Part shown: piece by piece, positions 2,222 through 42,643 of the stretch
How positions within the stretch are numbered: position 1 is the stretch's first letter
How the letters are laid out: each line of letters starts with the position of its first letter
Program-made: the position numbers and the translations under genes
Notes under the pieces: model-generated
Databases searched by the model: none
Told to the model about the DNA's origin: nothing
The model's input: only the letters and a program-made list of their open reading frames with translations
Assembly (NCBI GenBank): GCA_964036045.1
Contig: OZ038383.1
Location: forward strand, 92,326,086-92,390,085
Source of the DNA: Eutreptiella sp. 'Long Island Sound 2002'
Taxonomy: Eukaryota > Euglenozoa > Euglenophyceae > Eutreptiales > Eutreptiaceae
Length of the DNA stretch: 64,000 nt
Reading direction: 5' to 3'

Positions 2222-2391
2222 TGTGTGGTGTCGCGCGACAGGCGCTGATGGAAAAGGGTCGTGAATTTGAAAGCGCATTTGGCGCCAGACCATAATTTAA
2301 TTTCTGCTAAATCTGGTGAATCTGTTATTTTAAATGTTGTTTTTAATAAGAAATCCAAGTGCCAGCAGCAGAAACCTATAATTCGCCTGTG

Positions 2392-2552
2392 CTGAACTAC
2401 CCTTGTCGCACCCTTGTTGCGCCCTTGTCGCGCCCCTTGTCGCGCCCCTTGTCGCGCGATAACACCCCTTATCGCGCCCTTATCGCGCACCCTTATCGCG
2501 CGATAACCCCCTTATCGCACCCCTTGTTGCACCCCCTTGTCGCGCCCCCTTT
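2392..2552. repeat. TTATCGCGCGATAA / TTGTCGCGCC array of element 0
   Basis: About 14 short units of the types CCTTGTCGCGCC, CCTTATCGCGC and TTATCGCGCGATAA, roughly 11-13 bp apart. They lie just upstream of the oxygenase gene at 2642. The same units in the opposite sense (GTGCAACAAGG, GCGCGATAAGG) occur at 19370..19391, 41769..41830 and 42346..42480, so the array marks both ends and the interior of element 0. Confidence 0.85.
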
Positions 2553-2559
2553 TGTGTTG

Positions 2560-2565
2560 TATAAG
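2560..2565 (+). promoter_or_regulatory. Likely TATA box of the element 0 oxygenase gene
   Basis: TATAAG lies directly after the palindromic array and about 77 bp before the ATG at 2642. The position suits a TATA box, but no transcript evidence is available. Confidence 0.45.
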
Positions 2566-2641
2566 TAGGTTTCCATTGCACTTTTCCCTCTTCCTTTGTT
2601 CTCAGACCTTCTCTTGTGTCCGTGGGGACTTGCCGGTGGTC

Positions 2642-4085
2642 ATGGAGGCTTTGGGTGCAGCCGGAGTGTGCATTGGGGATTGGGTGGAACAACATCGGCG
2701 GGTTTTGGGGACCCGAAGGGTGGTGGGACCGGGGCTGGTGTTGCAAGCTGCCACGGTAAGGGCATCGGATGAGCAGCTAACATTCGATGCAACCACCACT
2801 TTTGCCCACATCCGTGTGGCACGACAAGTTTTTGGAGAGGTCACTGGGTCGTGTCTCAGTGACATGATCTACCCCATTATGGATGCCAACCCCAACCTTT
2901 TGGGTTGCACCCTTGATTTGGTAAATGCCGACACCGATGCCCTGGTGTCTGTTTTTCGAAGCAAGGTGAGCGCGAAGGTTGGAACACGGGTCACCAACTT
3001 CATCACCCCCCTTTTCCAGGACCTCGATGAAGGTGGGAAAAGAAAAGCCGGGTGCCAATTTTCTGCCCAAAGGGCAAAAAAGGAAGAGGTCCCCGTGATA
3101 CATCACGAGCGAGTTTTTGAGGTCAAGGACTGTGCCTCTGTTTTGCCAGTTTTTTGTCTTCCTTCAAATGGGTCCACGGCCTGGGCCGACCCATACTATG
3201 GTTTCACCACCCCGTTTTTTTATACTTCTGCCACTGTTGTTGCATGGCCATTGCATAGTGCAGATCCACTCATTGGTTGTGGTGACGAACCAATTGAGTC
3301 CCCTGAGTGGGTGGGATTCAACGAATCACTCCCAGACCTTGTTCGCTTGGAGCACTGTGTTTTGCGTGCAACTTTGAGTCCCTCATTGTACAAATTACAA
3401 ACTGAGGTGGCTACCCTCGATCCGCTCCAAGGCACACCAATTTTTAACGAAAAGTTTCCTTCTATTGGAAGGAAGTTTGATTCTTATGACAGGGTGCAGT
3501 TTTTTGGAAAGCATCATAGCATCCCTATCAATGAATGGGGTGAGGATTATCATGACTTTCCACACCTTGAGAATGTCACGACAGATTTGCACCATGACAT
3601 TCAGACCCGAACAGGCCTGCCCTTGAATATTGAGATTGTTGCCTATGTTGGTGCACTTGGTGCTGCTCAACATTGGCATGGGGATTTTCCCCGCAAGGTG
3701 ATCCCCGAGGGACATCATGCATTTGCTGTTTTTTCCCCTTTGAATTATCAACTTAATGGAAACCAGTGGATACATGGTTCATCGGTGGGCTTTCCTGTTC
3801 CTTGGGTTGTCAAGGAGATGGATGCTGGTTTGGGAGACGCATTTGTGTTGAATGTGTGTTCCATTCATCGTGGTGGTGGCTTGCCCGAGGGTGTGCCGCC
3901 GGTTAATGAGATCTCACAGATAAGGAATGTACGGTGGGTGGGTTTCATGCTTCTGTCTACCACTGCCCTGCCCAAAAATGTCACGGAAGGAATTAACCCA
4001 CCGTTTTGGGCAGAGGACCCTTCCATGACATTAGATGCTCCCGATGTTGCCCACTGTGGTGTCAAGTCATGCAGAAAACGCCCTA
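2642..4085 (+). pseudogene. 2OG-Fe(II) oxygenase of element 0, N-terminal part (split by element 1)
   Basis: Starts MEALGAAGVC. The first 150 residues match in pattern the N-termini of the element 1 and 2 oxygenases (a stretch like ANPNLLGCTLDLVNADTDAL). The jelly-roll core shows the metal triad as HWHGD (HxD) and a distal His in CSIHRGGGLPEG, with an Arg about 20 residues on. The frame runs up to the TA duplication at 4084-4085 and continues without shift at 18768 into CYGCKKKVLCPTHKTQMCASC, a Cys/His zinc motif. Known enzymes of this fold hydroxylate DNA, RNA, protein or small molecules; the substrate is unknown. The five copies here are more alike in architecture than in sequence. Confidence 0.85.
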
Positions 4086-4318
4086 TATGGTGAGCATAAC
4101 CTGGCATACCAAGAATACCCCCCCAAAACAGCCATTTTGGCACATGTACCTAGTCGTTCCGTGTGCCCATGGGATATAAAAAATGAGTTTAGCACCCTGA
4201 AAATAGGGGGGGGGGTCAAAAAACCGGAAAGCCAATTCCATACACCCACACCTGTGTGTGGCAATCTACACTTTTTGAGGTATTTGTCAGTATACTCGAA
4301 GTATTGGAGAAGTATTCT

Positions 4319-4386
4319 TGCCGTATACTTCGGAGTATACGGCCGTATACTCAGAAGTATACGGCCGTATACTTGGAGTATACGGG
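4319..4386. repeat. GTATACGGCCGTATAC array, left end of element 1
   Basis: Two full 16-bp palindromes (4335-4350 and 4357-4372), 22 bp apart, flanked by half sites. It lies downstream of the transposase stop, inside the subterminal region. Confidence 0.9.
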
Positions 4387-4732
4387 GACTTTCTACCTTC
4401 CACCCATGCCACCATTCTCATCACCTACCCCTCCCCCTTGCATTTACTCATGACCCTGCAACCCCCAAACACATTGTACACACAAAAGAGCACCATATGA
4501 GCAAAGCAGAAGACCACAAGAAGCAACCTTGTTTGATGTCCCATCCGAAATGTCAAATGTGATCCACTTCCCCATGTTATATATACCTAATATACAGACT
4601 TACGCATATTGCACATCACATGATATATACCTACATGTGCTTTGGTGCACGATGCTTCTTCCGCATGCGTTGCATGCCAAACTTGATCCCCTCTCTACCC
4701 AAACCCTTTCCCCCAAACCACAACCGGATGCC

Positions 4733-6089
4733 CTAATCAAGGGCATCCAGGTCCAGAGCATGCCTTAGTCCCCATCGGGTGACATAAGGCTTGCTCGGCT
4801 TCCACCCTTGAAAACAATGGCGGATGTCCATTTTAAAACTTTTGTTCCTCCATTCCGTGGGAATGGAGGAAAACTTAATAAAATTCCCCCACCTTTGGAG
4901 GTGTGCCCCACTGTGGCACACCACCCAATGCACCCAAACCGGAACACTCCACCCCAATGCCCCCCATGCCTTGGTGAATTGTGTAACCATGGATGCATAA
5001 CGTTGGCGTTGATCCATGGGAACAGGACCCACATGGCGCCAAATCTTTTGCATATAGTAACAGGCCTGCAACATGAGGTGCAGGACGGCACTGGTTTTGA
5101 GCCACCTGTTGCCCTCCCACTTCACAACATGGGTACAATACATTGCAACAATGCGCACCAACTCGGCGTGCAACTCAGGTGTTTCGAAAAAAAGACGGGG
5201 GGCGTTAATGTCGAGAGTGTGTTCCTCCTTTTTCGAGGGAGCACGCATCACTCTCTCAGCCACAGGGATGTGCTTTGCTTCTTGCCGGAGGTTAGAAATG
5301 AAATGGGACACGGCCCTTAGAGCTCCTGGTGAACCCCATGTGCGGGCGCTGTCCTTGAGACGTTTCCCAATGCCTGTCCCCACCCTTGCACAACAATGTG
5401 CCACATCTCCAACATTGCGGACAGGAGGGATGCAAGACATAAGGGACCCAATGCGAGGAAGCCGTGGAAAATCTGCAATTGCAAACAAATGGGCTTGAAA
5501 TTGGTCATACTTGAGATTGCAATTCCAACATTTCCCACACAAACCCGACATCATGACTTTCCCATCCCCACTTTTAAAACACAATAATTTTTTGGGAGTA
5601 CCCCCAATTTCTATGCCGCCCTCGGCTTCAAGTTTCTTGACTTGGTCATTCAATTTCCCCACGGCATCCATCCTTTGCAGATGGGCCATATCGTCCCCCC
5701 CATCAAAAATCCACCATGAGGCCCATGCCTGACCATCATGGTGTGCCCCCCTATCCTCCCATAGGTCCACAAACACGTCACAACGTGTGGCACTGGCATT
5801 GTGAAAAACAGTGGCATCAGAACAGATTACAACAGCCAAATATATATTCTCCTCATACTTCCGAATGCTGTCTTCGGCATGGGCACATGCAACCATGGTG
5901 GTGACAATATCATGCAATTCCACCACCCCACATGTCCGGGTACCCCCTTTAGTGGCCACCTCCAGAACCCTCCCCTTGGACAGGTAAGGTGTGAGGGTCT
6001 TACGTTTTGCCATCACATGGTCCCAAGTGCATGTGGTCCTCATGCAACCCTTCAATGCCCGGATGGAAAGGTGGTGCCGCCGCATCCAT
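4733..6089 (-). pseudogene. DDE-type transposase of element 1, C-terminal part (clade I)
   Basis: Conserved blocks shared with the transposases of elements 0 and 2: CSDATVFHNASATRCDVFVD (first Asp candidate), GDGKVMMSGLCGKCWNC (second Asp candidate plus a Cys knuckle), and WVHWVVCHSGAHLQRWGNF followed by FSSIPTEWRNKSFKMD (Glu candidate). It ends LDLDALD. The 5' part lies at 12621..13090; removing element 5 and one TCCAT copy gives an unbroken join through EAINLLRW then MRRHHLSIR. It should cut and join the ends of element 1. The family resembles large eukaryotic transposases such as KDZ or Plavaka in overall logic, but I cannot place it in a named family by eye. Confidence 0.8.
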
Positions 6090-6515
6090 CTTAGGCGTCA
6101 CAAGTTGCCCACCCCCCACCTGGCGCTATGGCCCAAGGAAGTCCATGTTGTAATGAGGGGGAAAGTATGTGAAAAGGGGTGTTATTTTTTGGGTACCCAA
6201 ACCCCCCTGGTGGCAACATGCAAAAACAAGGTGTGTATTTCAAATATATGCCATTATTTGCATTTCTGGAAACACACAGATTTTCAAAATAAAGACATTC
6301 AATCACCAAAATATAGTGTTGTTTTACATTTAGACCACTGCATTCCAGTGTGTGTGGGGGGGGGGGGGGCTGCCTATTTTTCTCTCCCCTTTGTTCGAGG
6401 TTGATCACAGAACCCCCCTATACACCACAGATGAGGGAACCCCAAACATACCTTTCATTGAAGCACACAAAAAACTATCCCAAAGCATGTACTTGTATTT
6501 CCTATTTTAACCAAC

Positions 6516-6838
6516 CTGGCCGAAATTTCGGCCAGCTCTTCGAAAAAGTCCAAACACATGGTCCTATTTGACAGACAAGCCTAAGCTGGCCGAAATTTCG
6601 GCCAGGTCCATCGAAACTCCGAATATGATCACTGAAATGGGTACCTAAGACAGTAGACATGAGCAAGGAACACAGGAGCAGTGACATTTGAACAGGGTGT
6701 GCAACATAATATACTCAATTACAAGCAAATACTTGCCACCTGACGAATCAAAGCAGACTTTTGCGGTGCCTATGGGGAAACACAATAATAAAAAGCTGAA
6801 GAGGCTGAGGACTGCATGCTGGCCGAAATTTCGGCCAG
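6516..6838. repeat. Three CTGGCCGAAATTTCGGCCAG palindromes, left end of element 5
   Basis: Perfect 20-bp palindromes at 6516-6535, 6586-6605 and 6819-6838; the first two start 70 bp apart. The stretch 6115..6877 has no coding frame I can support. It also contains a G-run at 6356-6369. Confidence 0.9.
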
Positions 6839-6877
6839 ACTTCATGCTGACAGGCAATATAAGCAGCAGGACTCGCA

Positions 6878-9465
6878 TTAGCGCTTGTGCAGACCAGATG
6901 CACGGGGCTTCTTAGCACCTGTGTTAGCAGGCTGCTTGGCAGGGGCTGCAGCACCAGGCTTGGCAGTGCCAGAGTTCTGTGACCGTGTGTTTCCACCCTG
7001 GGATGGTGAAAAATGATTCACAAAAGTATTCATACCTTTGCCAGTAGGGGCAACAGTGCCTGAGGAGGAAGCTGGGGTGGCCTGAGCGCACTGCGTGCCA
7101 CTGGGTGAGGGGGCAGGGGCAGTTTTGGGTTTCTTCTTTGGAGTCTGTGTCTCTGGTTGCGACTCTGCCTCCCCATCTTGCTCCTCAGGATCCTCATCTA
7201 CATACCTAACCCCAGAACAATCCACAGGAAAACGTGCCCCCAAGTCGCGGTACACATCCTCCCATGACTTGGGGGGGCACGTGTCGGCGTTGGTGATACC
7301 TGCTCTGATGAGCTGAACAAAGTCATCGGGCACAACAGTCTCCTCACCCAAAAGGGCACACACAACATTACAGTCCTTGGAAAACCTGGTAGACATCATG
7401 CTTGCAAAATACACAGACAGAGTCCCCAGCAAAAACGAGTTGCCTGCCCGTTCTGGGACCGGAACCAGGCTCAAAAGAAATGAGAATATTTCAACAGGCA
7501 TCACAGACGACATGGGTCCTGCAGTAAAAGCCACGTAACGGGGAAGCCTTTTATCAAAGGCAGTGGCAGAACAAATGGAAACCAGATGGGACGTAGAAGT
7601 GTACAGCGGGGTCTTGCTTGACAAATTGTAAAGTGCAACATCACACTGATACATATCCTCAGCCACAGTGGCCTTCAAAGCAGCAACAGTGACTTTCACA
7701 TCAGCAGACTCACCCGCAATGAACACAGGCACACCGGACAAAAGCAACTGCGCAACCAGGTTATGCAAACCAGCTGTATAGAGGCGGGGCACCTTAATGA
7801 CACAAGCAGCAAAGGGCAGTGAACTAATGATACTGGGAACAGGGACTCCACAACGCATTGCCATCAGTTCCACACGGCCTGACTCTGCAATGAGTTTGCC
7901 TGTGCTTGACTCAACGAGGGACTCCCTAGCACACTGGATACTGACCAGACCAGTATCAGATTTTTCACAAACAGGCTTAGCAACAGGCTTCTGCAACAAT
8001 CCCCGCAACCCCTCATATTTGGGTTCCTTCCAAAGAGGGGCCTTAATTACTGCTGACCACGGGGGCCAGGGGTTTTCTTCAGTCCAGGTCCAACTGCCAT
8101 AGGCTACCTTCAGGTGTGATGCAATAGCGCACTGCCTTTTGGCCATCTCGATAGTACCAAGTGTAGCTGCAGACAGGTGGTAGCACAGGGTGGGCTCCTA
8201 TTGTGCATTAATTGAACGACACACAAGCTGGCCGAAATTTCGGCCACGTCGGTCGATTTATTCGAATACAAACCCCTGTTTGACCAAAACATACCTCTGG
8301 TGTTGTTCACAAGCACATTGGTAGCCGCCTCGGGATGAAGAATGTGCCAGGACCACATCTGGGCCTTTTTAACATCTTTTATAATTTTTTTGAGACCAGG
8401 TAGGGTACCTTCTGTCCCATCCATGTAACCTACGATCTCGCGAAGTCGGTCAGGCGTGATGCCTTCCACTTCCTTGAACGTACCCAGTGCGGGATGTAGT
8501 CCACGCTTTTCCATGGCTGCCATGGCGTCTACTGAAGGAAGACCCACAAATTTCACCAAACGCCCAACGCCACCCCACCGTTTGGCAACAGCACTCTGCA
8601 CAGGAGAACATGTGGAACACAGAAGCTGGCCGAAATTTCGGCCAGGTCGATGGACAAAACCGAATTAATAAATGAAACACACCACAGTGCCTTCCTCGGC
8701 AGTAACACCACACTCTTCAAGCATAACAGTAATGTGATGGTACAGGGTGTACTCATTGGCATCCTCATCCTCAAGCCTATCCAGGAGTAGGGACATTCGC
8801 TCCGATGTGGTGGATGCTGAGCCAGCAGTGGTGTGGATTTGATGTAAGCCTGCAAGCCGGCGCCTAGTCCGCAGGGGGCAGTCCTGTTTGACTTCATAAC
8901 CACCAAATACCAGGGTCCAATCCGGAGTCTCCATATTTTTCATCTCAAATTCAGTCTTGTGTTTTTGGGCAGCAGTGTAAACATGCTGACCCCCCAACAG
9001 AACCCAGCGAGTGGCTGTGCAACAGGAATATTCGTAACAGCAGGGTCGAAAATTCGGACGCGAAAGCGGTACTATCGAGAATAATACCACAACACACATA
9101 CGAGTGACTTTATAAAAAAGAAGATCCTGGATGTAATCCACAGGCGGGGCTGCCTTCAGATCGTCGTAGCGGCGTTGCACGCGATCATCCGAAATCCTAC
9201 GGACCTGCCCAAATTTTCGGTCGTGGTCGATAATAATGTGATCCCACCGAACCTTTATTTTCGTCGTTGACGTAACCCAGTCGGATAACTTGATGGAGGA
9301 TGATGAATTTTTCTTTGGTGCGGCCTTAGGGTTCTTTTGAAGTCCCTCTGTGCTCGCCTGGTCCTCTTGAGACTGGGATTGCACTTGAGATTGCCCATTG
9401 TCTGCTGCAGGCTCACCATCTGGCGAAACAGCCATGTCCTGCGATACCCCTCCAGGCTCAGTCAT
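6878..9465 (-). CDS. Spliced gene B of element 5, unknown function
   Basis: ATG at 9463-9465 starts MTEPGGVSQD. At least four exons: the intron at 9015..9101 has a GTATGT donor and an ACAG acceptor and joins in frame (through KVTPTRWVLLGGQH); the intron at 8596..8682 has GTGTGT and GTGCAG borders in phase 0; the intron near 8210..8294 has a GTATGT donor and an ATAG acceptor, but its phase does not fit cleanly, so its borders are uncertain. Each intron holds the element palindrome or a worn copy (8228, 8626, about 9044). The segment around RWVLLGGQHVYTAAQ weakly recalls ParB/sulfiredoxin-like folds. The last exon ends in a Ser/Pro/Lys-rich tail. Function unknown. Confidence 0.7.
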
Positions 9466-9584
9466 AAACTAAAGGGCTACAAGGCAACATTTCATGAAGG
9501 GGAGAGTTCCCAGATGGCAAATAACAAGCACAGATCAACCAAAAAAGGACCAAAACGGACTGCCTGACAGGAAATTCGGATAAC

Positions 9585-9743
9585 CTGGCCGAAATTTCGG
9601 CCAGCACTGCTCTGCATGCCAAACCACTGTGTACAAATACCATTCTGAGAGGCTGGCCGAAATTTCGGCCAGAACCTTAAGTCATTTGTGTTCTGGGGGT
9701 AGCCATATGACAAAACAACAAGTCTGGCCGAAATTTCGGCCAG
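9585..9743. repeat. Three CTGGCCGAAATTTCGGCCAG palindromes between genes A and B
   Basis: Copies at 9585-9604, 9653-9672 and 9724-9743, with starts 68 and 71 bp apart. They lie upstream of gene B (start 9465) and downstream of gene A (stop 9836). Confidence 0.92.
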
Positions 9744-9835
9744 AAAAACATGAAACAGCAAATAGACACACCAAAATCACTGGCAATGCGTGGCAGAACC
9801 CATACCACAGTGACAAACACAGCTGCAAACAGAAA

Positions 9836-12043: not shown

Positions 12044-12114
12044 TAATGCTGAGACAAGAAAACAGTTATGTAGGAGTGTATGGTGTAATACTCATGAACA
12101 ACGACAATTGCAAG

Positions 12115-12415
12115 CTGGCCGAAATTTCGGCCAGGTGTGTTCAAAGGGGAAATAATTGCTTACATGTTGAAAAATAGGAAAAGCTGGCCGAAATTTCGGC
12201 CAACCCACCCAAAAACCAGAGTATAAGTGCTTGAATAGTGAACAGACCAAAAAGCTGGCCGAAATTTCGGCCAGCCCTAAGAAAAATGAAAATAATCATG
12301 CCTATTCACCAAGACACCAAAAAGCTGGCCGAAATTTCGGCCAGAAGGGTCAAAAACTGCATATACACATAGTTGTTTGCAATGTTACCCAAAACCTGGC
12401 CGAAATTTCGGCCAG
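12115..12415. repeat. Five CTGGCCGAAATTTCGGCCAG palindromes at about 70-bp intervals
   Basis: Starts at 12115, 12184, 12255, 12325 and 12396, that is intervals of 69, 71, 70 and 71 bp, directly upstream of gene A. The second copy ends CCAA instead of CCAG. The intervening sequence is not conserved, so the spacing itself appears to be maintained. Confidence 0.93.
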
Positions 12416-12620
12416 CTTCAGAAAAACGTCAAATACAACACACTAGAAGACGGGGATACACAAGGCTAACACATCAACACGTATTTCAACGGGTGTCACA
12501 CAGCTCTGCCAACAACTTTGGTCACATACGTCAAATAACATACTCAAAGTAGAAATGTAGAATATTGTCAAATCGCGCGTATACGGGGTCCTAGAGGGTG
12601 GGCAACTTGTGACGCCTAAG

Positions 12621-13090
12621 TCCATCGGAGTAGGTTAATTGCCTCCTTGTCGGCCACATCCACCTCACCATCTTTTAAAATAATCATGAGGCCTTGGGCA
12701 TGGGGTCGCAAAAGTACATCGTCACCAAGCAATGCTGATGCTACCGATTGCATCCACAAACGTCTTTGCCGTTGCCCTCTTTCCCCGCAATCCTATTGTA
12801 AAAAAAACAGGGTGGGCCATAACATGTGAAACAAAATAGGGTGCTGGCGTTGACGTTTGTGGATGCAGAGCACATACTGCATAGGGGGTCAAATGCCGGC
12901 GTTTGATTCCCTCACAAAAATCTTGAATGCTCTCCAAACAAAGCCCCTTCTCCTTCTGATGGGCATTTGCAAACATATTGCTTACAATAATTGCTGTGGA
13001 GAGATGTGCCAGGCATATGTGGGCCAGTTGCCCGGTGAAACCGTGCGCACAGGCGCATGCAACAGGCGCACAGCATGTACGATTCAGCAC
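12621..13090 (-). pseudogene. DDE transposase of element 1, N-terminal part
   Basis: The frame upstream of the element 5 insertion reads GDDVLLRPHAQGLMIILKDG, then DKEAINLLRW, and joins the 4733..6089 part. An A8 run at 12800-12807 shifts the frame; beyond it the ORF continues upstream as KGLCLESIQDFCEGIKRR. The pattern LLGDD then EAINLLRWMRRHHLSIRALK matches LLGDPDVV then EHEALSMLRMACSMHLSQRAL of the element 2 transposase, so the assignment is firm. A likely start is in MFANAHQKEKG. Confidence 0.72.
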
Positions 13091-13098
13091 AAATCTTT

Positions 13099-32729: not shown

Positions 32730-33182
32730 CCGGAGCTCTGCTCCCGGGGGGGGGGGGTGTGTAGGTACCCTCCGGAGCACCTGTCCTTTCTAACCACGCC
32801 TTTCTAACCACGACGAATGTTATCCTGCCCCCCCCCCCCCTCAAGCATGGGCAGTTTGACCGATATGTGGGGTACTCCCCCCCCACTGTGCGAAATTTTC
32901 TGCAGCACTGTTTGTACATTACCCCCTGACCTGATGTGCCCCCTGACCTGTTAACCTGTTAACCTGTTAATTTGCGATTCCTTTCTGCGGAACTGTTTGT
33001 ATATTTGGGGCCACTTCAATTTCATTACTGTTTGTATATTACACTGCTGGCTGAGTGACAGCCGGAATGACAGCATGAGACAATGACAATGACAATGACA
33101 GTATGAGCACCATCCTGAGCTTGCTTTGTGAGGGTCAACGAGGGCACAAGGATGAGGCTTTGGCAGAAATTCTGTGACAGTC

Positions 33183-33337
33183 ATGTGAAATTCGCACGAA
33201 ATTCGTACGAAATTCGTACGAATTTCGTACGAATTTCGTACGAATTTCACATTTTCAGAATATTCACACATTTCTATTCATGTGAAATTCGTACGAATTT
33301 CGTACGAAATTCGTACGAATTTCGTGCGAATCTATGT
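33183..33337. repeat. AAATTCGTACGAATTT arrays upstream of the element 3 transposase
   Basis: Two dyad-symmetric blocks of 11-bp units at 33183..33252 and 33280..33337. The preceding 32730..33180 has no supported gene; it contains G- and C-runs and ACAATG repeats near 33080. Confidence 0.92.
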
Positions 33338-33450
33338 GAATTTCTTTTAATTGCATGCGAATCACAGTAGAGAGAGTGGTCTGCGGCAGGGGGATGGTAG
33401 AAACTTTGCGATGACTGCCTGCCCATTCAACAGGACCTGTATCTCACATC

Positions 33451-35172
33451 ATGCCACGGCCCAAGGAGCCATTCCATCTGGTAGCGGATCGTACACGACG
33501 GCGGCGCGTACAAGAGCTCCAGGAGGTTGTTTCCAAGGAGCTTGCAGCACCCTACACCGTCAAGTACCTGCCCGACACGGGGCAAATAGTGCTCACCCCC
33601 GAAACAAGAATTGTAGCCACCGTCCAGCCCGAGCCCACCCAGGAGGAGAGGTTGATTATGGCCGTGTGGAGGATCCGGTCATTGCACCTCTCTAGGACAG
33701 AGTCCCGGTACCTGGTGGGGAGCATGACGTACGGTGTGGTATGGGACCAGGTGTACGGCATGCTCCGGCAGCTAGCGTTGCCGGAGTCCCGGGCGTTTAC
33801 TGCCTATACGGGTGACGACACGGCCATCAATGGTGCGGCCTGCTACCTACCTGACCGCATCGCCCACCTATTCAAGTGTCGACCACCACCACCCTCGGCC
33901 ATCATGCAGCCCGGGGACCGACGGCTGCATTGGTTGCCTATTGCGGTGGACGGTACATCGAGGCATGAGGCCTCGTACGTCCATTGCACGCTTGGTGGCA
34001 CCGCCAGCCCCAACCAACTATCTAGTTGGTGGCTACTAGGGGGCAGTGAAAAGAGGGACACCCTCTACGCGGCCTCCCAGGAAATTGATTTTGATGATGA
34101 GTTGCGCAAGGCCGCAACCATAAGTTTTAAGGATACCGCAGGGACCGATAGGCAGTCCCTTTTTTTTCTGTGTGCAGATGGTAAGGCACAGGTGCTCATG
34201 GCGGGCTGCCAAAACTGGAAGGCAGAATCCCCTGGTGCCACTGTGTGTTGGGTCTGCATGCGTAACCGTGCTCTGTGCCTTGCTACCTTTGGCACAGCAA
34301 GTGCGATAGACGGCAACTGGGAACCAGCCGTTGCCATAAGTGCTATATATAGGACCATTATGAGTGATAGGCGAGTGCCTGATTATGGCCTCCATGGGGT
34401 CCTTCGTGTCCTGTTGTGTGCAGTCAACGGGACCCGGGACCTAGTTGTACAATTGACAGGGAAGGCACCGGCCACTGTGGCACGCACCATGCTGCAACCG
34501 GTTTTAGATGAGGCACGGCTTGCTGCACGAACTTGCACCCGTGCCTCATTAAATAATGACAAGGCAAACAGCAAGGGGAAGGTGAGGATGGAGTGTGCTG
34601 CTGCCATCCATTTCATGCGCAATAAGGGTTGGGAGAAGATAATAGATGCTTGCCTAGAGCAGCCTAGTGTCAGGCAGCATCAAGTAGGGGGAAAAAGTTG
34701 GGAGTCGGTGTGCAAAACGTGGTGGGAGAATTTTGCAAGCATGTGTGTATACGCGTGGCGTTCCGCATGGTTCTCCGGGGCCGACTTGGGGCGGCTCCGG
34801 AACCATAGCATAGCCATGGGCGCTGCCCACAATGAGCTCCAGTGGGGCAAACTTCTGTGGACGCATCTTTGGATCGACCACATGTATTATTTTGCAAAGA
34901 AGTGGAGAATCTTGTCAAAGTTCTCCTGCTTTGCCATGGAGGGAAGTCACCGGAGGCTGAAGCGCATGTTGCGCAACAGCGGGGGCCTAAGCCTCCTCCG
35001 GGGGAGACTAGGGGTGCAAGTGGTTGTGGACAACCACACCATTGACGATAGCCTTTGGTTGCATGGGTGGGATGCGACCAAAAGGGCTCAACGTGGGCAA
35101 GGGCCCATAAGTGTACAAACGTATGCAAGCCGCACAAGAAGACGGCTTCTAACCGACATGCAGCACCTTTAG
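33451..35172 (+). CDS. DDE-type transposase of element 3, intact (clade II)
   Basis: An unbroken 573-codon frame from ATG at 33451 (MPRPKEPFHLVADRTRRRRV). Candidate catalytic blocks: LPIAVDGTSRHEASYVHCTL, FLCADGKAQVLMAGCQNW followed by CWVCMRNRAL (Cys knuckle), and LWTHLWIDHMYYFAKKWRIL then FSCFAMEGSHRRLKRM. The last block separates clade II (also LWAHLWIDH copies in element 4 relatives) from clade I (WIHWCLAHS type). It should act on element 3 ends; family name not determinable by eye. Confidence 0.83.
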   Translation: MPRPKEPFHLVADRTRRRRVQELQEVVSKELAAPYTVKYLPDTGQIVLTPETRIVATVQPEPTQEERLIMAVWRIRSLHLSRTESRYLVGSMTYGVVWDQVYGMLRQLALPESRAFTAYTGDDTAINGAACYLPDRIAHLFKCRPPPPSAIMQPGDRRLHWLPIAVDGTSRHEASYVHCTLGGTASPNQLSSWWLLGGSEKRDTLYAASQEIDFDDELRKAATISFKDTAGTDRQSLFFLCADGKAQVLMAGCQNWKAESPGATVCWVCMRNRALCLATFGTASAIDGNWEPAVAISAIYRTIMSDRRVPDYGLHGVLRVLLCAVNGTRDLVVQLTGKAPATVARTMLQPVLDEARLAARTCTRASLNNDKANSKGKVRMECAAAIHFMRNKGWEKIIDACLEQPSVRQHQVGGKSWESVCKTWWENFASMCVYAWRSAWFSGADLGRLRNHSIAMGAAHNELQWGKLLWTHLWIDHMYYFAKKWRILSKFSCFAMEGSHRRLKRMLRNSGGLSLLRGRLGVQVVVDNHTIDDSLWLHGWDATKRAQRGQGPISVQTYASRTRRRLLTDMQHL

Positions 35173-35317
35173 ACTCTACAGCGGCGGTTCCGGTGCCGCA
35201 AGAGACGGACATGAGATGACCTTACGAACCCAGACCATTGTTGCCTGTGACCGGGGTGCATGCTGGGAGGCTTACTAGGGGTGTGAGGACAAATCAGGGG
35301 GTGCACACGGGTAACAT

Positions 35318-35405
35318 TTGTGTAAATTCACGTGAATTCACGTGAAATTCGTACGAAATTCGTACGAAATTCGTACGAATTTCACGTGAATTCACGTGAA
35401 TTCAC
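35318..35405. repeat. AAATTCGTACGAATTT and CACGTG array, right end of element 3
   Basis: One block of 11-bp units flanked on both sides by AATTCACGTGAATTCACG words. 35406..35808 is subterminal DNA without a gene. Confidence 0.9.
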
Positions 35406-35808
35406 GGCTGTGAATCGGCTACAGGCTTGCCGGGTTCCGGCACCTCTCGTTTTGGGCACGGTGCGGTCATGATGCATGCTTTTGGGGCGGGACTTTCATT
35501 GGATGATGCGTAACAAAGCTAGGGGAGGAATTTTGGCCCCTCAAAGCCCTTGAAATGAACCAAGAATATGGCATTTTCCCCCAAAAACCTCAAATTTTGG
35601 GTAAATTCACGTGAAATTCACGCAATTATTCAAACGGCCACTTAACGGCCGTTCACGAAGGGTACAAATATCGAGCAAACGAAACATGGAAGGCACATTG
35701 TTGCATCATAGTGCACCCATGTAACATGTGAAATTCCGGGTTCCAACCACATTAACAACACCCAAAATTGGGGGGGTTCCGCACCACGCCCTAGAACGGT
35801 GCATCCCA

Positions 35809-36013
35809 AGGCGCGCTCACCGGTGAGCGCGTCCTGTGCCGTCTTGCGGGCGGCCTCCGCCGCCTTCAGCTGCTCGCGCAGCAGCTTGTTCTCCGCATCC
35901 AGTTGAAAATTGGCGTAGTGGATGGGGACTTGCAAATGCGCAACAACACAAGCATAAAACAATGCACACAACGACACCACTGCAACAGCGAAGACAACTC
36001 GAAAACCAGCCAC
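35809..36013 (-). pseudogene. Coiled-coil protein of element 4, N-terminal part
   Basis: Contains FQLDAENKLLREQLKAAEAA, a coiled coil, and joins 21986 after removal of element 2. The start is uncertain: a hydrophobic stretch VVFAVAVVSLCALFYACVVA precedes it, which could be a membrane segment or simply intronic sequence read through (a TTGCAG acceptor candidate lies within it). Confidence 0.6.
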
Positions 36014-36068
36014 AGAACAACGTTTCCGATAAAACCCAACGAACTAAATTCAGGCGCCAAAACGGCAC

Positions 36069-36275
36069 TTGGCGCGCGCCAACTAGCTATTTGGCGCGCC
36101 AAAACTTGACTTGGCGCGCGCCAAAACTTGACTTGGCGCGCGCCAAAACTGGATTTGGCGCACGCCAACCGAACACTTGGCGCGCCAACCGGTGGCTTGG
36201 CGCGCGCCAAGATGGAAGTTGGCGCGCGCCAACTGCGAAGTTGGCGCGCCAATCTGCTATTTGGCGCGCGCCAAA
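36069..36275. repeat. TTGGCGCGCGCCAA array between element 4 oxygenase and coiled-coil parts
   Basis: Ten palindromes starting at 36069, 36091, 36111, 36133, 36155, 36177, 36197, 36219, 36241 and 36261: intervals of 20 or 22 bp. The position corresponds to the array-bearing intron in elements 1, 2 and 3. Confidence 0.95.
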
Positions 36276-36328
36276 TTCGTGTCACGTGTGACCACATCGC
36301 ATGCATGCAAGGCACCGCGCGGGCACAC

Positions 36329-37044
36329 CTTCTCGCTGCAGGAGCAGATGGTGCGGCGGGCCTTGTCCACGCGGACGAGGTCCAACATCTCGGCGTCCTG
36401 GGAGCTCAGGGGCGGGGTGAAGTGGGCCATGGCCATCGAGGCCATGCGGCCGGCCCCTGGCTCCCGCACGAACGCAGCGCCCAGTGCGGCGAACGAGTAC
36501 ACCATCGTCCCGGCCGTGCAGCGCACGCGGCAGAAGTCGGTGGCCTCGCAGGGGGGGAGCCACCACCGGTGGATGTGCGGAGTGAGGCAGGCATCCGCTC
36601 TGGCCGCCTCGGCGGTGGGCCCCACGTGCGCGTGGTCGGTGGGGGTCAGAAACAGACCCGCAGACACCCCCTCTTGCAGGAGGAGGACGTCCCCCATGTA
36701 GGGCACCGGGGGGTCCAACGGCTGCTCAGCCTGCGACACGAAGCAGACTGGCTGGGGGATCGCGTCGGGAGTGAGGAAGTCCTCCTCTGCCGGGGGGGGG
36801 GGCGGCCGGCCTCTCCTCCGCTTCCGCCGGCGCCTCCGCATCCGCCGGCGCCTCCGCATCCGCCGGCGCCTCCGCATCCGCTGGCGCCGCCGGCATCTCC
36901 TCCTCCTCCTGTGCCGCACTCTGTGGGGGGGGGGGGGCGGCATCCGCGTCAGCCGGCGCGGCCGGCCTCTCCTCCGCATCCGCCGGCGCCTCCGGCATGT
37001 CCACCTCGTGGGGGGCAGGCACGGGATCCTGGGGCCGGTACCTG
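36329..37044 (-). pseudogene. 2OG oxygenase of element 4, C-terminal part
   Basis: Reads RYRPQDPVPAPHEVDMPEAP, then five APADAE repeats (18-bp repeats at about 36823-36890), then a frameshift at the G-run near 36788-36796, and LTPDAIPQPVCFVSQAEQPL to ICSCSEK followed by GTGTGCC at 36328, the same donor position as in element 3. This part is on the minus strand, while the core of the enzyme lies inverted at 37045..40424. Confidence 0.7.
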
Positions 37045-37360
37045 GGGCGCTATCAGACGACGGTCTCCAGCGTCCCCCACTGGCTCCCGGACGACCTCTG
37101 GCAGGCTGTTCTGGCCCTGCTGGGGTTCTCCCTCCCACCGCTGCAGGGACTTGAGGCCTTGTGCCCCAAGATCATCGAGCGGTGGGAGGCAGAACCCTGG
37201 AAGGGTTTCCAGATCCCCCACCGCGATTTTGCACTGTCAGTGAAACAGTCACTGCAGTGCATGGTCGTGTTCATCCCCCTCACCACCTCTCCCCCGTCCA
37301 AGTCCCTCCAGGTGTGCCCGGGCACGCAGGGGGGCTATCACGCTGCGCATCGGTGGGATA
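37045..37360 (+). pseudogene. 2OG oxygenase core of element 4, first half, in inverted orientation
   Basis: Plus-strand frame with HWLPDDLWQAVLALLGFSLP, the HxD in GFQIPHRDFAL and AHRWDI at the element 6 junction. Removing element 6 with one TA copy continues it in frame at 40178 (WDIVIQPLRSVTLLRGTVIH). Both ends of the gene lie on the minus strand, so an inversion of about 37045..40424 must have occurred. Confidence 0.68.
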
Positions 37361-37755
37361 TTCCTTTGTCTACGGAGGGGACGTTATTGTCCGGAAGCGG
37401 TCTGCGCGGCACAATACGTGCTGCGCGTGTTGCTTCAAAACGCGCAGCACGCGCAGCACGTGCAGAACGCAAACAACACACGCATCACGCGCAGAACGCG
37501 CAGAACGCGCAGCACGGAGTTCTAGAGGCAGACTTAGAAGCAGACTTCCGGCACGCGCAAAACGCGTAGCACGCGTAGCACGTCACTATTGCACACGCGC
37601 GCACTTTTGGGGGGCCGCGTCCTCACAGTTTGGGTATCCAGCCTACGCGGTTGTCCCCCAGGGTTCGCACTGGTCCCATGGGTAGGGATGGCAGAGGCTT
37701 GGCGGCCATGAAGTTCACGATTCCACCACGTCCGCCCTCCACCACCTTCTCCTTC

Positions 37756-38203
37756 CTAATCTTCGTCAACCTCCATGTCCTCGTCCTCTTCCCCGTCACT
37801 CTCCTCCTCCTCCTCACTCTCTTCCTCCTCATCCTCCTCCCCCTCCTCCTCACTCTCCTCCTCCGTGTCATCCTCACTCTCCTCCCTCTCGCTGCCATCC
37901 ACCTCGGCCTCGTCGCCCTCCTCCTCCACATCTGCCTCTACCACCCCGGTCACCCCATGCGCCACGGCAAAGCACCCCACATGGTACCACTTGCCGCACC
38001 CACAACAAACGTAGTGGGTCTTGCCCCGGTTGCAATGGGCGCACACCCGGCGGCCCGGCATCCGCACCGGCACGTGGATGGGCTTGGCCACCGCCACTGT
38101 ACAAAAGCGGCGCCGGATAAGGTCCAACTGCCAGTCAAACATGGTACCCGTTCGGACCCCCCCGAGGGACCGGCAGGTCGCGTATGCGTTGACCACGGCA
38201 CTC
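37756..38203 (-). pseudogene. piggyBac-like transposase C-terminus in element 6
   Basis: Reads RSAVVNAYATCRSLGG, then VCAHCNRGKTHYVCCGCGKW and YHVGCF, a Cys/His finger of the kind that closes piggyBac transposases, and an acidic tail of about 60 residues to the stop at 37756. It matches 49476..50060 in element 7. Upstream it joins directly to the 5' half of a gene X intron, which marks an internal deletion. Confidence 0.72.
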
Positions 38204-38330
38204 CTCCAGAAGCGTGCAAGGAATCATGCGTGTAACACGCGTAGAACGCGCATCACGCTACCATGGGCCTCCAGAGGCGGCGCGGAGGCACCAGCGCGCA
38301 CACCACCGAGACCACAAAGCACACAGATAC

Positions 38331-39840
38331 CCGCGGTTTCTTCGCCGCCAGCTCTCGGGTGCGCACCAACGACCATGCTCCAGACGCCGGAAGTTCGAGT
38401 TGCCGTTCCTCTTCCAATTCGTACGCCATCAGGCCGGCCATCCGGACAAACCGGACAAACTTCTCCTGCAGAACGCGGAAAACACGATCGGTCCTCCAGA
38501 GGCACAGTAGAAGCAAACACGCAGAACGCGCAGAACGCGCATGACGCGCGGAGCGACTACGTAGAAACACAACAGAGGACGCGCGCAACACCTGCAAAAC
38601 ATCCGTGTCCATGTCAACGATGTCTTCGATGCCCATTGCGCTCACCCGATCGCTGACCCCACCTCCACGACCACCTCGCAGGCCCTCCATTTTCAGCTTG
38701 CCCAAACTCAGGCCCTCTGCCGGCGGGCTGAGGTCCACCGGCCATTGCGGCGCGGCGGCGCAACCCGTACAAACCGAAAGGCCCTTCAAAATCCCCTCCG
38801 CCACTTGTCTCGGGCTGCTCGATGGGTAGCGCTTCTCGAAGTGCTCACGGGCTGCTGCAGCCGACTGGGCGTTCTTGGTCCCGCATCTCAGCACGCTTTG
38901 CACGCTCAGGGCCCGCACACTGGTGTGCAGCAGCAGGGCCAACCCGAGCTCTTGCTTGGACCTGGGTTCCTCCGACAGGCACTCCTTGTAGTGCATCACC
39001 AGGCGACCCACGGTCGCATTGAAGTCCGTCTCCAAGATTCTCTGCATTGTGTCCAGATCACGGTCGTACCCGCCTTCATGCTGGAACTTCTCTGCTCTTG
39101 TCGGTGCGGCGCTGATGCTCTTCTGCGGGCCCTTCCCGCTAATCGCAAAGGACACGTTCCCACGGGCCGGCTTGTCCTTGTCCTTCTTTTTCTTGGGCAT
39201 CTCGGCCTCGGACTTCTTCGGTGGCACCTTGGGCGGGCTCCGCTCCTCTGCCTTCCGCTTCTTCTTCTCTGCCATTGTCTGCGGCTCCTGCTTGACCTCC
39301 AGCATGGTGGACCGTGCTGCCTTTCCAGAAGCCTTTGCAGCAGAAGAGGAGTGTTTCTCCGGCACATCATCTGGCTCGTCCTCTGAATGCTCCCTCTTCA
39401 CTGTGCCTCGGGCCTGCTTCTTGCCATGGGGTGTCAATGGCACGTCGTCGTCTTCCTCCTCTTCCTCCTCTTCCTCCTCCTCGTCTCCATCGTCCGCTGC
39501 CTCCTCCTCCTCCTCCTCCTCCTCCTCACTCTCTTCTGCCTCGCCCTCCAACCAGGTCCACAACCGGTTCGCTTGGATCTGCAGAACGCGCAGCACGCGT
39601 AACACGGTGGTGGTGCCCCCAGAGGCGGAGCGAGAGGCACACCGGCGGAACGTGCAGAACGCGCAACACGCGCAACACACGTAGAACAGGGGGCAGAATC
39701 ACATACAGATGCAACACGCAGCACGCCCAGAACAACCTTTGTGTACTCGAACCATCCATCCGGCTTAGCGCGGCAATCTTGGACTTTTGCGGGATCCCGG
39801 GGCTTGCTTGGCTTCGTCTTGATCTGCAGGCAGTTGGTGG
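38331..39840 (-). CDS. Gene X, copy in element 6 (partial)
   Basis: Exons at about 39737..39840, 38592..39578 and 38331..38465. Order: IKTKPSKPRDPAKVQDCRAK, a Glu-rich stretch, Lys-rich SPPKVPPKKSEAEMPKKKKD, then a conserved folded part (YDRDLDTMQRILETDFNATV, LGLALLLHTSVRALSVQSVL, EKRYPSSSPRQVAEGILKGL, CTGCAAAPQWP) and EKFVRFVRMAGLMAYELEEE. The same gene lies in element 7. No family recognised; it is likely an accessory gene of the piggyBac-like elements. The final exon is lost. Confidence 0.65.
38466..38591 (-). other. Introner-like intron in gene X (element 6)
   Basis: Phase 0, CAG|GTGTTGCG to TTCTGCAG|GAG, 126 bp. Contains GCGCGTTCTGCGTGT and GTGCCTCTGGAGG, the words shared by the other introns of this type. 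Same position as 55015..55174. Confidence 0.82.
39579..39736 (-). other. Introner-like intron in gene X (element 6)
   Basis: Phase 0, AAAG|GTTGTTCT to GCGTTCTGCAG|ATC, 158 bp, with the shared words TGCGCGTT and GTGCCTCT...GCCTCTGG. Exon join reads FEYTK then IQANRLW. Confidence 0.82.
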
Positions 39841-40177
39841 GGTAAGCAGCTTATCGAAAATGTCGGTTACGTGCGGAACGCGGAACACGCCTTGCACGGA
39901 TATGCGACACGAGTTATTCGAGTTCCAGAGGCACACCTAGAAGCGAACGCTTAGAACACGTAACACGCGTAACACGCGCGGCACACGGAGCACGAAAGCC
40001 AAGGTAGAGGCAACGGCACGATACGCTTCTCACATGGAAAACGGTGGAAATGAACAAAACGGATGCTTCCATGACGTCCGGCACGTTCGAAAACCCCCCG
40101 GAACAACAAAACTTTATGGATTCATTTTTGACGAACAAAAAACGTTGATTCCGTTCTGCGCGTGGTAGACAAAGGAA

Positions 40178-40424
40178 TATTGTTATCCAACCGCTTCGCA
40201 GCGTGACGCTCCTCCGCGGGACGGTGATCCACCGCGGTGCGGGCGGGCCTGGCCGGGCACTGTTCATCCCGTTTGCACCCGTCGGCTACCGGTCGCGCAT
40301 GCTGACCGTAGAGCCGGAGAGTGTAACGGAGCTGATGAACAGTGTTCCGGTGATGCCCTCCGAGCTTCTGGCCGAGGGGGCTGCAGTCGGGTCCCCTCTG
40401 TGCCTCCCGTATGGGTCCGACCCG
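40178..40424 (+). pseudogene. 2OG oxygenase core of element 4, second half, in inverted orientation
   Basis: Contains the distal His as GTVIHRGAGGPGRALFIPFA and continues to PLCLPYGSDP. That end would adjoin RYRPQDPVPAPH on the minus strand at 37044; the combined order PYGSDPYRYRPQD is present intact at 54560 in element 7, though in another gene. Confidence 0.65.
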
Positions 40425-41388
40425 TCCCACCTTCCCCGGGGGCCTGGAGGTCCACCTCCTCGAGCATTGACGGGTTGAGTTCCACCGTGGCGAGCTCCGC
40501 CAGTCTGGCCCACAGATCCTCGGGGATGATGCGGTCATACTGGCGGTAGCCCGCCGCGGCAAAACCCTCCTCCGTGACGATGGGGGGGTTGGGGATGTCG
40601 TGGTTGGCGACGGGGTAGGAGTTGTGGAAGGAGGGGTGGGGGCAACCCATGCCAGGCATGGTGAAGGGGGCGTCGGTGCTGTAGAGGGTGGGGTGGGTGA
40701 TGTCGGGGATGTGGGTGCGCAGGCGACGGTTGGTGGAGAACTCCGTGGGAGCTACTGCATCCCACGCGTGCACCTTCGGCGTCTGGTACCGCACGACGGC
40801 GTCAGTGGCCGTGCGGTGCGTCCAGCCACTTTTTTTGACTGGATCCACCCACAGCCACTGCTCCTCGGGGTCGAGACCCTGAGGCGGCATCTCCTGCAGG
40901 TCGAGAACGTTAAGTAACTCTTTTGACGCTGCAGCAGTGCACAGCGTCAGGGTCTTGTTGAAGGCCTCAAGGGTGACTTGAGAAAGCTTCAACTCGACCG
41001 CGAGCGTCGTGGGGTACCGGCCCATCACGGCACAGCAGAACCTGCTAAGAACCCCCCTGGTCAGGGCGAAGTTAACACGGGTGGCATCAATTCACCAGAC
41101 CAAGTGGGGATTGCCCGGCTGGTCCCACTTGCCGAAGAGGGCGGCCTCCAGGGGTTCGCGGAGGGGGGGGAGCTGGGGGAAGGATTCGGCGTCCGGGGAG
41201 GTGAGGGTGTAGGGGATGGGAAAATAGCCCCCGGGGAAGTGCTCGGAGCCCACGTTGGCGATGTGGGCATCGACCACCGGCTGCACCTCGGGGTTAGGTG
41301 GTGCAGCGGGGGCTGGGGCTGGGGCAGACGTGGGGTCAGTGACTGTCACCTTCTTCCCCTTGCCCTTCTTGGGTTGCTTTGGAGGCAT
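40425..41388 (-). pseudogene. 2OG oxygenase of element 4, N-terminal part
   Basis: ATG at 41386-41388: MPPKQPKKGKGKKVTVTDPT. An in-frame TGA at 41092-41094 (LVW stop IDATRVNF) breaks an otherwise continuous frame. Further on THPTLYSTDAPFTMPG, as in element 3, and IIPEDLWARLAEL up to the inversion border near 40425. The TGA context is TGA ATT, not a known readthrough context, so a nonsense mutation is the simplest reading. Confidence 0.72.
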
Positions 41389-41456
41389 GATAACGTGAAA
41401 TGCCTAGAAGGGAAAGGGAATGCATAAAGGGTGCAAAAGAAGAGGAAGAATGGGGC

Positions 41457-41545
41457 ACTTGGCGCGCGCCAAAACCGGAGTTGGCGCGCGCCAACTCTTG
41501 AGTTGGCGCGCGCCAACTGCCAAGTTGGCGCGCCAACTTTGACTT
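41457..41545. repeat. TTGGCGCGCGCCAA array, right end of element 4
   Basis: Four palindromes 20-22 bp apart, upstream of the oxygenase ATG at 41388. 41546..41766 is the subterminal region, nearly identical to the complement of 51128..51370 and to 59947..60057 over its outer part. Confidence 0.93.
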
Positions 41546-41835
41546 GGCTTCCAAAAAGTTGGCTTCGACCCAAAAAACCCACATATTGCATCATAACAAC
41601 AAAGCAACGCAACCAAAAGCTGTAAAATATCAATAGTTCCTCACGTTTCATGCACAAGGCGTAGCAACAACACAGTGCACAAGTACAAGCAAGTTGAATG
41701 CTCTCGACATGGAGTTGACCAGGAGTTGGCGAATGTACAGTATCTGGGGTTGGCTTCGTAGTTACATACCTTATCGCGCACCTTATCGCGCGATAAGGGG
41801 GCGCGACAAGGTACCTTATCGCGCACCACGCGAAT

Positions 41836-42306
41836 GTGGAGACCCCTGCTGGGCCTTTGGTATGGGTGGTCCTTCGTACCCTCTTGCACCAGTTTGCACA
41901 TATCCATAGGTTTTGGAGGCAAAAAGAATTTTTTACCAATAGTGATGTTGCCATGTCACTAATGTACACTAATGCGGTGGACCGCGAGGCATGGGGGGAC
42001 TTAGGGTGGAAGGTGAGCACGTGGGTCCATTGGACATGTGCTCACTCACCTCATTTTGCACAGGCATATAGGAATATATATATATTTTCAAGCATTCCAA
42101 GTGAAAAAAGGAATAGCCCTTTCAAGAGGGACCTACACAACAGTTGTAAGGGATGGGCTCTCTTAAAGCCAAGGTTATCTAGGCTCTCCATGGGCCATGT
42201 TGCAAATATGAATAACCTGGACATGGGGTTGCTTGCACGGAAGGTACAGGAGGCAGAGGAGAGAGACAAAGCAGAAATCCTACTAGGACGTCGCAGGTTG
42301 CAGTAG
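41836..42306 (+). pseudogene. DDE transposase of element 0, C-terminal remnant (clade I)
   Basis: Block WVHWTCAHSPHFAQAYRNIY then FSSIPSEKRNSPFKRDLHNS, matching the element 1 and 2 transposases, ending LLGRRRLQ. The 5' part of the gene is missing; an array of GCGCGATAAGG units (41769..41830) precedes it directly. Confidence 0.78.
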
Positions 42307-42345
42307 ACAAGAGATGTCACAAAGTGGTTGTCTTGTGCATGCTTC

Positions 42346-42480
42346 ATAGGGTGCAACAAGGAGTGCAACAAGGGGTGCAACAAGGGGGGTTATCGCGCGA
42401 TAAGGGGGTGCAACAAGGGGTGCAACAAGGGGGGGTTGTTGCGCAACAAAGGGTTCAACAAGGGTGCAACAAGGGGTTGT
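42346..42480. repeat. GTGCAACAAGG / TTATCGCGCGATAA array, right end of element 0
   Basis: About ten GTGCAACAAGG units and one TTATCGCGCGATAA, 11-13 bp apart, mirror image of the left array at 2392..2552. Confidence 0.9.
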
Positions 42481-42643
42481 ACAAGGTTGGGAAGCAGAGT
42501 CCCTATAGGTCATTTGGGCCCCCTTAGGACACATGACCCCTTAAAACCCCCCATGGGTACTACAAGACACCTTTTAGGTGTTTACAAGTTTGGGTGCAAC
42601 AAGGTACCCTTTTCCATCAGGTCCCAGTGCACCACACCACATG

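Follow-up and report, generated by a model that had tools for sequence, protein, structure and literature searches.

The question raised by this locus, a stretch of 64,000 nucleotides (the "window") at 92.33 Mb of its contig in the genome of Eutreptiella sp. 'Long Island Sound 2002' (2.28 Gb in 2205 contigs), is what DNA transposons do with two different oxygenase-like proteins next to a transposase, and how these proteins could be produced. Five nested DNA transposons, designated E0 to E4, are present in the window: E0 hosts E1 and E4, E4 hosts E2, and the leader of E2 hosts E3. A first-pass annotation had proposed a DNA transposon group with a fixed gene order and with one element carrying two different oxygenase-like proteins, and this was borne out. 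The order oxygenase, coiled coil, Tet/JBP-like unit (if present), and transposase was found in E1, E2, and E3; E4 is decayed, and its transposase tail had to be inferred from a 97% copy. Outside the window, oxygenase, coiled coil, and Tet-like unit recur in the same order in an additional element, E5. The reading developed here is that of CMCT elements with a spliced oxygenase-coiled-coil gene, readthrough of a UGA codon into the Tet/JBP-like unit, and demethylation targeted to the repeat arrays of the element; as a whole, this model is held to be somewhat likelier right than wrong.

The assignment of the elements to a transposon class starts with the transposases. In five of five, an E stands exactly 20 residues past an H-x4-H, with that of E4 read from a shortened derivative at 51 kb. 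The transposase of E3 is a single open reading frame (ORF; 33451..35172, plus strand) with D167, D243, C266/C269, H472/H477, and E497, and the main part of that of E1 (4733..6097, minus strand) contains DAT, GDGK, CWNC, HWVVCH, and E. These two are readable throughout, and in both of them D, D, and CxxC were seen, with the CxxC after the second D and gaps from C to H of 203 residues in E3 and 197 in E1. The transposase of E2 (22368..24032, minus strand) is spread over several frames; it contains the CxxC, and its second D is N, so that this copy is probably dead. Three relatives in flank pieces L015, L006, and L002 have D at this position. The pieces from E0 (C-terminal part, 41797..42306, plus strand, with HWTCAH and E at +20) and E4 do not span D, D, and CxxC. 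The three acid blocks and the Cys knuckle that had been ascribed to the transposases in general are thus found in E1 and E3 but not in full in the window copy of E2. By sequence similarity, E1 is related to E2 (E 6e-21) and to E3 (E 7e-8).

According to excerpts of Kojima 2025 (PMC12730594), members of the CMCT clade (CACTA/Transib/Plavaka/ESTA, and RAG1) are characterized by the motifs C(2)C and H(3-4)H together with target site duplications (TSDs) of 2 to 5 bp. By motif and by 2-bp TSD, an assignment of the present elements as CMCT-like DNA transposons is well supported. The CA..TG termini which the same excerpts describe for most, not all, members of the clade do not occur here, where the ends are TATGG, TGTAAC, TGGGAT, and TGATGG. 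The kinship to KDZ transposons suggested in the annotation was not upheld: known KDZ transposons carry Tet/JBP genes, but they are described in these excerpts as making TSDs of 7 to 8 bp, and the combination of C(2)C, H(4)H, E at +20, and a 2-bp TSD fits CMCT instead, which makes it very improbable that the elements are KDZ transposons. In agreement, no Pfam family fitted the transposases scanned, the KDZ domain PF18758 included. A search of the genome for PF18758 gave 0 matches, but the controls likewise gave 0, and this result is uninformative.

The gaps between the E1 motifs are 84, 12, 3, 197, 5, and 20, and those of RAG1 are 108, 19, 3, 207, 5, and 20; the RAG1 residues 937, 942, and 962 match the H-x4-H and the E at +20. 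RAG1/Transib is alike in these two features; the TSD of Transib is 5 bp, and a search of PDB with the transposase sequence gave no relevant match. The AlphaFold model of the transposase was poor (predicted local distance difference test, pLDDT, of 47.8). In parts predicted with low confidence, strands precede D167 and D243 and E497 is closely followed by a helix, which is the order of an RNase H fold.

The nesting was worked out by matching the ends of the elements with shortened derivatives inside the window. E1 (4086..18765, minus strand) possesses both ends, with 26-bp perfect terminal repeats TATGGTGAGCATAACCTGGCATACCA and the TSD TA, and sits in the oxygenase gene of E0, the frame of which is open across the insertion site (...CRKRPTSICYGCKKK...) after removal of E1 and one TA. 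E4, an old element (19394..41766, minus strand, terminal repeat TGTA[AG]CTACGAAGCCA, TSD TA), was inserted into E0 and is split by E2 and others. E2 (21987..35808, minus strand) has 34-bp terminal repeats, identical at 33 of 34 positions, and was inserted into the coiled coil of E4; its flanks AA/AG are a 2-bp duplication with one mismatch. When the removal of 0, 1, 2, or 3 bp at this site was tried, two coiled-coil-like stretches of E4 were joined in one frame by removal of 2 bp; with 1 bp removed, the frame was also open, but the product was not coiled-coil-like. Three shortened derivatives, all in plus orientation, belong to the E2 family (47047..47768, TSD CA), the E1 family (50563..51114, perfect 26-bp repeats, TSD TG), and the E4 family (51128..52381, TSD AA); the transposase tail of E4 was read from the last of these. 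Exact 2-bp TSDs were therefore observed for E1, E4, and these three derivatives.

The outermost element, E0 (2246..42619, plus strand), is delimited by candidate 14-bp terminal repeats TGATGGAAAAGGGT at 2246-2259 and 42606-42619, which lie inside the span of 2224..42641 annotated before; an exact target duplication was looked for at these repeats, and none was found. E0 is interrupted by E1 and E4 and lacks its coiled coil and the start of its transposase. It had been credited with the first and the last unit of the gene order; its oxygenase is indeed present, albeit split by E1, but the transposase at 6097-4733 is part of E1, and the tail of E0 is that at 41797-42306. E3 (28783..35711, plus strand) lies within the 5' leader of E2. 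Its left end is common to a copy at 56661, and its right end, a 10-bp inverted match, is uncertain. A single composite element of 13.8 kb made of E2 and E3 was considered, as the 34-bp repeats of E2 enclose both, and was set aside because E3 has a left end and arrays of its own; E3 is interpreted as inserted into the leader of E2, with its right end and its TSD unproven. The anatomy is firm for E1 to E3 and partial for E0 and E4.

The accessory gene begins with a large ORF similar to 2-oxoglutarate (2OG) oxygenases. In E2 (26586..28694, minus strand), this exon contains HRD and HRG and ends with CPCHQ at GTGTGA; in E1 (15485..18228, minus strand), it contains HRD and HRG, ends with CICNQ at GTATTT, and is interrupted by a fragment of the E4 family at about 17424-18090. 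The E0 gene consists of a first part (2507..4085, plus strand, HxD as HGD and a distal HRG) and a last part (18768..19330, plus strand, ending with CTCHQ at GTTTGT), which without E1 and one TA follows 4085 in frame. The E3 exon (29050..30969, plus strand) has HTD and RHHG and ends with CPCDCK at GTGTGC. In the badly decayed E4, oxygenase and coiled coil are both split by insertions; the oxygenase-like gene (36329..41386, minus strand) ends with CSCSEK at GTGTGC, and no HxD was found by eye on the strand of E4. An inverted oxygenase-like piece (...KGFQIPHRDFALSV..., window 37000-37500, plus strand) was noticed by eye on the strand opposite to E4.

The oxygenase-like ORFs of E0 and E2 (26%, E 2e-29) and of E1 and E2 (29%, E 3e-17) are homologous, and all three share H-x-D and a distal HRG. 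The HxD and distal His annotated as common to the oxygenases were confirmed as shared in E0 to E2. The E3 ORF, with its HTD and RHHG, could not be aligned to these three (BLASTP E 1.2; hhalign probability 0.2%) and had no Pfam match. The E2 oxygenase and one relative matched PhyH (E 0.011 and 0.017) and 2OG-FeII_Oxy_3 (E 0.08 and 0.068), all below the cut-off, and four other relatives had no Pfam match. The large ORF is a putative oxygenase by its motifs and the sub-threshold Pfam match.

A CxC-type end directly at a GT that could serve as a splice donor occurs in all five elements, as had been annotated, and also in E5. An acceptor ahead of the coiled-coil exon was seen by eye in E1, E2, and E3. 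Exon 2 of E2 (25136..26343, minus strand) contains an N-terminal stretch and the coiled coil, starts at an acceptor after a T-rich tract, and changes frame at a C run near 25720. The coiled-coil ORF of E1 (13811..14674, minus strand) shifts to another frame in a G run near 14660, and exon 2 of E3 (31266..32729, plus strand) contains a coiled coil and no Tet-like unit. With borders read by eye, the coiled coil appears to be the second exon of the gene that starts with the oxygenase, across an intron containing a repeat array, and not the separate unit assumed before. The frame changes of the coiled-coil exon occur at long C/G runs (25710-25730 and 14650-14665 on the minus strand, probably also 32640-32660 on the plus strand in E3) and may be sequencing errors, slippage, or decay.

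The Tet/JBP-like unit had likewise been regarded as separate, but it continues the frame of the coiled coil behind a UGA. In both E1 and E2, the two ORFs adjoin each other in a single frame, and between them is one TGA within the identical nine bases CAATGACTA. This TGA is located at 13808..13810 in E1 (CAA-TGA-CTA) and at 25133..25135 in E2 (CAA-TGA-CTA-G), and it precedes the Tet/JBP-like units of E1 (13193..13807, HCHMRD ... H ... GERY) and E2 (24497..25132, HSHLRD ... ALH ... GERW), all on the minus strand. The units are 31% identical (E 8e-31). The first in-frame ATG is at codon 25 in E2 and in E1 only at codon 91, inside the catalytic motif. Another CAATGACTA at 60652 is outside all listed ORFs and was taken as a chance match.

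For the evaluation of this junction, 230 kb of flanking DNA was added to the window, 294 kb in all. The flank holds four more Tet-like copies, with 84% (CAA-TGA-CTA), 92% and 62% (both CAA-TGA-CTC) identity, and E5 (GAG-TGA-AGG). E5 is a third Tet-positive family, 27-33% like the others in tblastn, and extends on the minus strand over flank pieces L002 (1-1421) and L001 (7269-10000), with an oxygenase exon ending with CTCNQ at GTGTGC and with coiled coil, TGA, and Tet-like unit in one frame. A TGA is thus present at six of six junctions, followed by CTA in three, CTC in two, and AGG in one. In the three families, 198+211, 288+204, and 242+232 codons are open before and after the TGA; the 84% and 92% copies contain a further stop 19-20 codons before it, and in the 62% copy both sides are decayed. 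CTA was used for 20 of 3055 codons in eight ORFs, with 15 of them in two transposases and 2 at the junctions; elsewhere in the six ORFs counted for oxygenase, coiled coil, and Tet-like unit, it is rare (3 of 2026 codons). At the protein level, with the DNA not seen, 36 clusters of the E2 type reach the junction among the 120 of 142 matching proteins listed. Among these listed matches, 30 of the 36 clusters start directly after the junction, at the codon past CTA, 2 read through with Arg, 3 start at the overlapping ATG, and 1 differs. One database protein of the E1 type reads through with Gly.

Readthrough of the UGA is the simplest reading of this arrangement and likely, although unproven. In excerpts of PMC4207609, UGA-CUA sufficed to cause readthrough in Ustilago, with UGA CU being effective in human cells, and UGA CUA G is named as the high-readthrough motif in excerpts of PMC12233894. 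In the present copies, UGA-CU occurs in five of six and UGA-CUA in three of six, with neither in the third family. An RNA structure after the UGA gave no clear signal (z of −1.4 to −2.6). Termination followed by reinitiation at the AUG overlapping the UGA was set aside because in both E1 and E2 the frame of this AUG is wrong.

A short intron that removes the UGA would turn oxygenase, coiled coil, and Tet-like domain into one ordinary spliced protein. E1 indeed offers a candidate, GTGGCC...TTGCAG, which spans the UGA, ends in a pyrimidine-rich acceptor, and, with 54 nt by hand count, keeps the frame; by eye, however, E2 possesses near its UGA neither a pyrimidine-rich acceptor nor a donor like CAG|GTGTGA, and the same-frame layout would demand introns divisible by 3 in three families, so that this explanation appears unlikely. 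Alternatively, the ancestral codon may have been CGA, converted into UGA by CpG decay, with the Tet-like unit being lost in young copies. The Arg in two database copies and the Gly in one copy of the E1 type would agree with such a history, as would the depletion of CpG and the excess of TpG in the window. Against it stand the UGA at the same site in three families that are about 30% alike and in six of six copies, the 30 of 36 listed clusters starting just past the UGA, and a frame that stays open for more than 200 codons behind the UGA in all three families; a decayed CGA is accordingly considered improbable, and readthrough remains the preferred reading.

Whether the second unit is a Tet/JBP protein is a separate issue. 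H-x-H-x-x-D and an Arg of the GER(W/Y) type were found in three of three families and the distal His in two of three. The Tet_JBP profile of Pfam had no match in 25 members of the group of the E2-type unit (A2) or in E5, and the structure model of the unit was too poor to be used (pLDDT of 32.1). For these reasons, "Tet/JBP-like" is a motif-level label, based on motifs that we take to be diagnostic, and the Tet/JBP identity is unproven. The accessory proteins might not be DNA oxygenases at all: their substrates may be protein, RNA, or small molecules, or else the Tet-like unit may be an inactive leftover. The HxH in place of HxD, the distal His absent from E5, and the lack of a Pfam match would agree with this, and so would the best match of the large oxygenase, the sub-threshold one to PhyH, which is a family of small-molecule enzymes. 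The Arg of the GERW/GERY type and the GG...R spacing are nevertheless retained, and fungal transposons carry Tet/JBP enzymes, one divergent type of which has HxE in excerpts of PMC12730594. This alternative is regarded as possible but doubtful.

The elements E1 to E4 each possess arrays in four matching places, before the oxygenase, in its intron, and before and after the transposase. The unit is TATACGGCCGTATA in E1 (4336..18550, minus strand, starts at 18480, 15014, 13115, and 4336), TTATCGCG in both orientations in E2 (22235..28772, minus strand, starts at 28753, 26376, 24091, and 22235), TTCGTACGAA in E3 (28932..35379, plus strand, starts at 28932, 31031, 33202, and 35348), and TTGGCGCGC in E4 (19636..41536, minus strand, starts at 41459, 36069, 21428, and 19636). 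Those of E1, E3, and E4 are palindromic, one per element. E5 contains three copies of the unit TATCGCGCGATA, and in E0 GCAACAAGG and TTATCGCG are mixed at those of the corresponding places that survive. The observed/expected (O/E) ratio of CpG in the arrays was 1.64 in E1, 1.92 in E2, 4.01 in E3, 1.31 in E4, and 0.92 in E0, of which two arrays were measured; it was 0.43-0.73 in eleven coding stretches, and TpG+CpA of the window was 1.26. From these values we infer that the genome is methylated, and the arrays are predicted binding sites of the element's own protein.

Taken together, cut-and-paste transposons of the CMCT clade, with 2-bp TSDs, would each carry a DDE transposase, as a separate gene or a late exon, and one accessory gene, in which a 2OG-oxygenase-like exon would be spliced over an array-bearing intron to a coiled-coil exon. 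In the Tet-positive families, most translation would stop at the coiled coil, and a minority of ribosomes may read through the UGA and add the Tet/JBP-like domain. The coiled coil may dimerize and bind the CpG-bearing array sites of the element, the oxygenase domains could remove or alter methyl marks there, and the element would escape silencing so that the transposase can act. One gene might even provide two grades of a silencing-breaker, a common oxygenase-coiled-coil form and a rare Tet/JBP-like form made by UGA readthrough, with the coiled coil targeting largely family-private arrays and thus mainly unsilencing the element itself; this extension is tentative and rather unlikely to hold in full.

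Several observations weigh against this model. Exon 2 of E1 and E2 is not open throughout as sequenced, due to the frame changes at a G/C run before the coiled coil. CTA is not rare in the two transposases counted (15 of 1027 codons), the junction of E5 is GAG-TGA-AGG instead of the readthrough motif, and in two E2-like copies CTC follows the stop. The Tet-like unit has HxH in place of HxD, and no distal His in E5; no unit scanned matched a Pfam or NCBIfam family at the cut-off, and both structure models, of the transposase and of the Tet-like unit, failed. The arrays are not strictly private because E0 shares TTATCGCG with E2 (49 in the window, 11 in E0 and 31 in E2), the E0 unit GCAACAAGG is no palindrome, and the E0 arrays are not CpG-rich. 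The CpG richness may only reflect the sequence of the unit, since young copies had little time for CpG loss.

The closest known systems are TET-positive CMCT transposons from rust fungi and mushrooms, among them ESTA. In excerpts of PMC12730594, they resemble the present elements in the C(2)C and H(3-4)H of their DDE transposase and in a Tet/JBP-like gene inside the element, and ESTA also in its 2-bp (TA) TSDs. Unlike ESTA, which was compared by its description in these excerpts only, the present elements carry a pair of different oxygenase-like proteins, with an in-frame UGA ahead of the second, which is joined to a coiled coil, and repeat arrays in four places. PlavakaA, another CMCT transposon in this source, has a 2-bp TSD and TGT..ACA termini as in E4, unlike the termini of E1 (TATGG), E2 (TGGGAT), and E0 (TGATGG), and the TET-positive Plavaka reported there is PlavakaB. 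As in MDH1, LDHB, and tpi1 of Ustilago in the excerpted sources, UGA is followed by CUA, and by CUA G in E2, but the extension here is a domain of 200 residues in a transposon. A readthrough in a DNA transposon was not described in the literature searched, nor was the present combination found in the one open-access library searched, which is no proof of absence in print. The accessory protein TnpA of CACTA/En-Spm transposons binds repeated sites near the ends and relieves the element from methylation, and is not an oxygenase. The outline is alike, with the array sites here located also in the intron and between the genes. Work on transposons with enzymes that counter DNA methylation is recent, and the excerpts of PMC12730594 concern fungi. 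The lineage studied here is separate and highly multiplied. It combines two oxygenase-like domains with arrays that contain CpG, and readthrough may set the ratio of these two domains. If true, it could be tested directly how, despite methylation of the genome, a transposon keeps its copies active.

The search with the E3 transposase listed 53 proteins, two of them at 45% and 35% identity, and the rest probably come from the same host. Single database clusters stand for up to 248 sequences in case of the E3 transposase and up to 491 in case of the E2 oxygenase. These numbers indicate an abundant lineage that is young in part and has rare relatives elsewhere. No match of the E3 transposase was found in collections of genome contigs and plasmids, and none of the transposase alignment and the E2 oxygenase in viral contigs, with all these collections possibly leaving out the host. 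About 200 kb of flanks (L001-L020) are dense in these families, with parts of E2, E3, and E4 at 80% or more and distant relatives of E0 and E1. Other mobile elements also occur in the window. A transposase gene at 49476-52800 (minus strand), seen by eye and labeled PiggyBac-like by what we take to be its motifs, is interrupted by the derivatives of the E1 and E4 families. A reverse-transcriptase-like ORF, seen by eye, and tyrosine-recombinase-like ORFs occur at 3-2511 and 58477-59385 (both minus strand); the latter ORFs matched Phage_integrase (E 0.026) and Phage_int_SAM_1 (E 0.16) below the cut-off, and these ORFs are perhaps DIRS-type retroelements.

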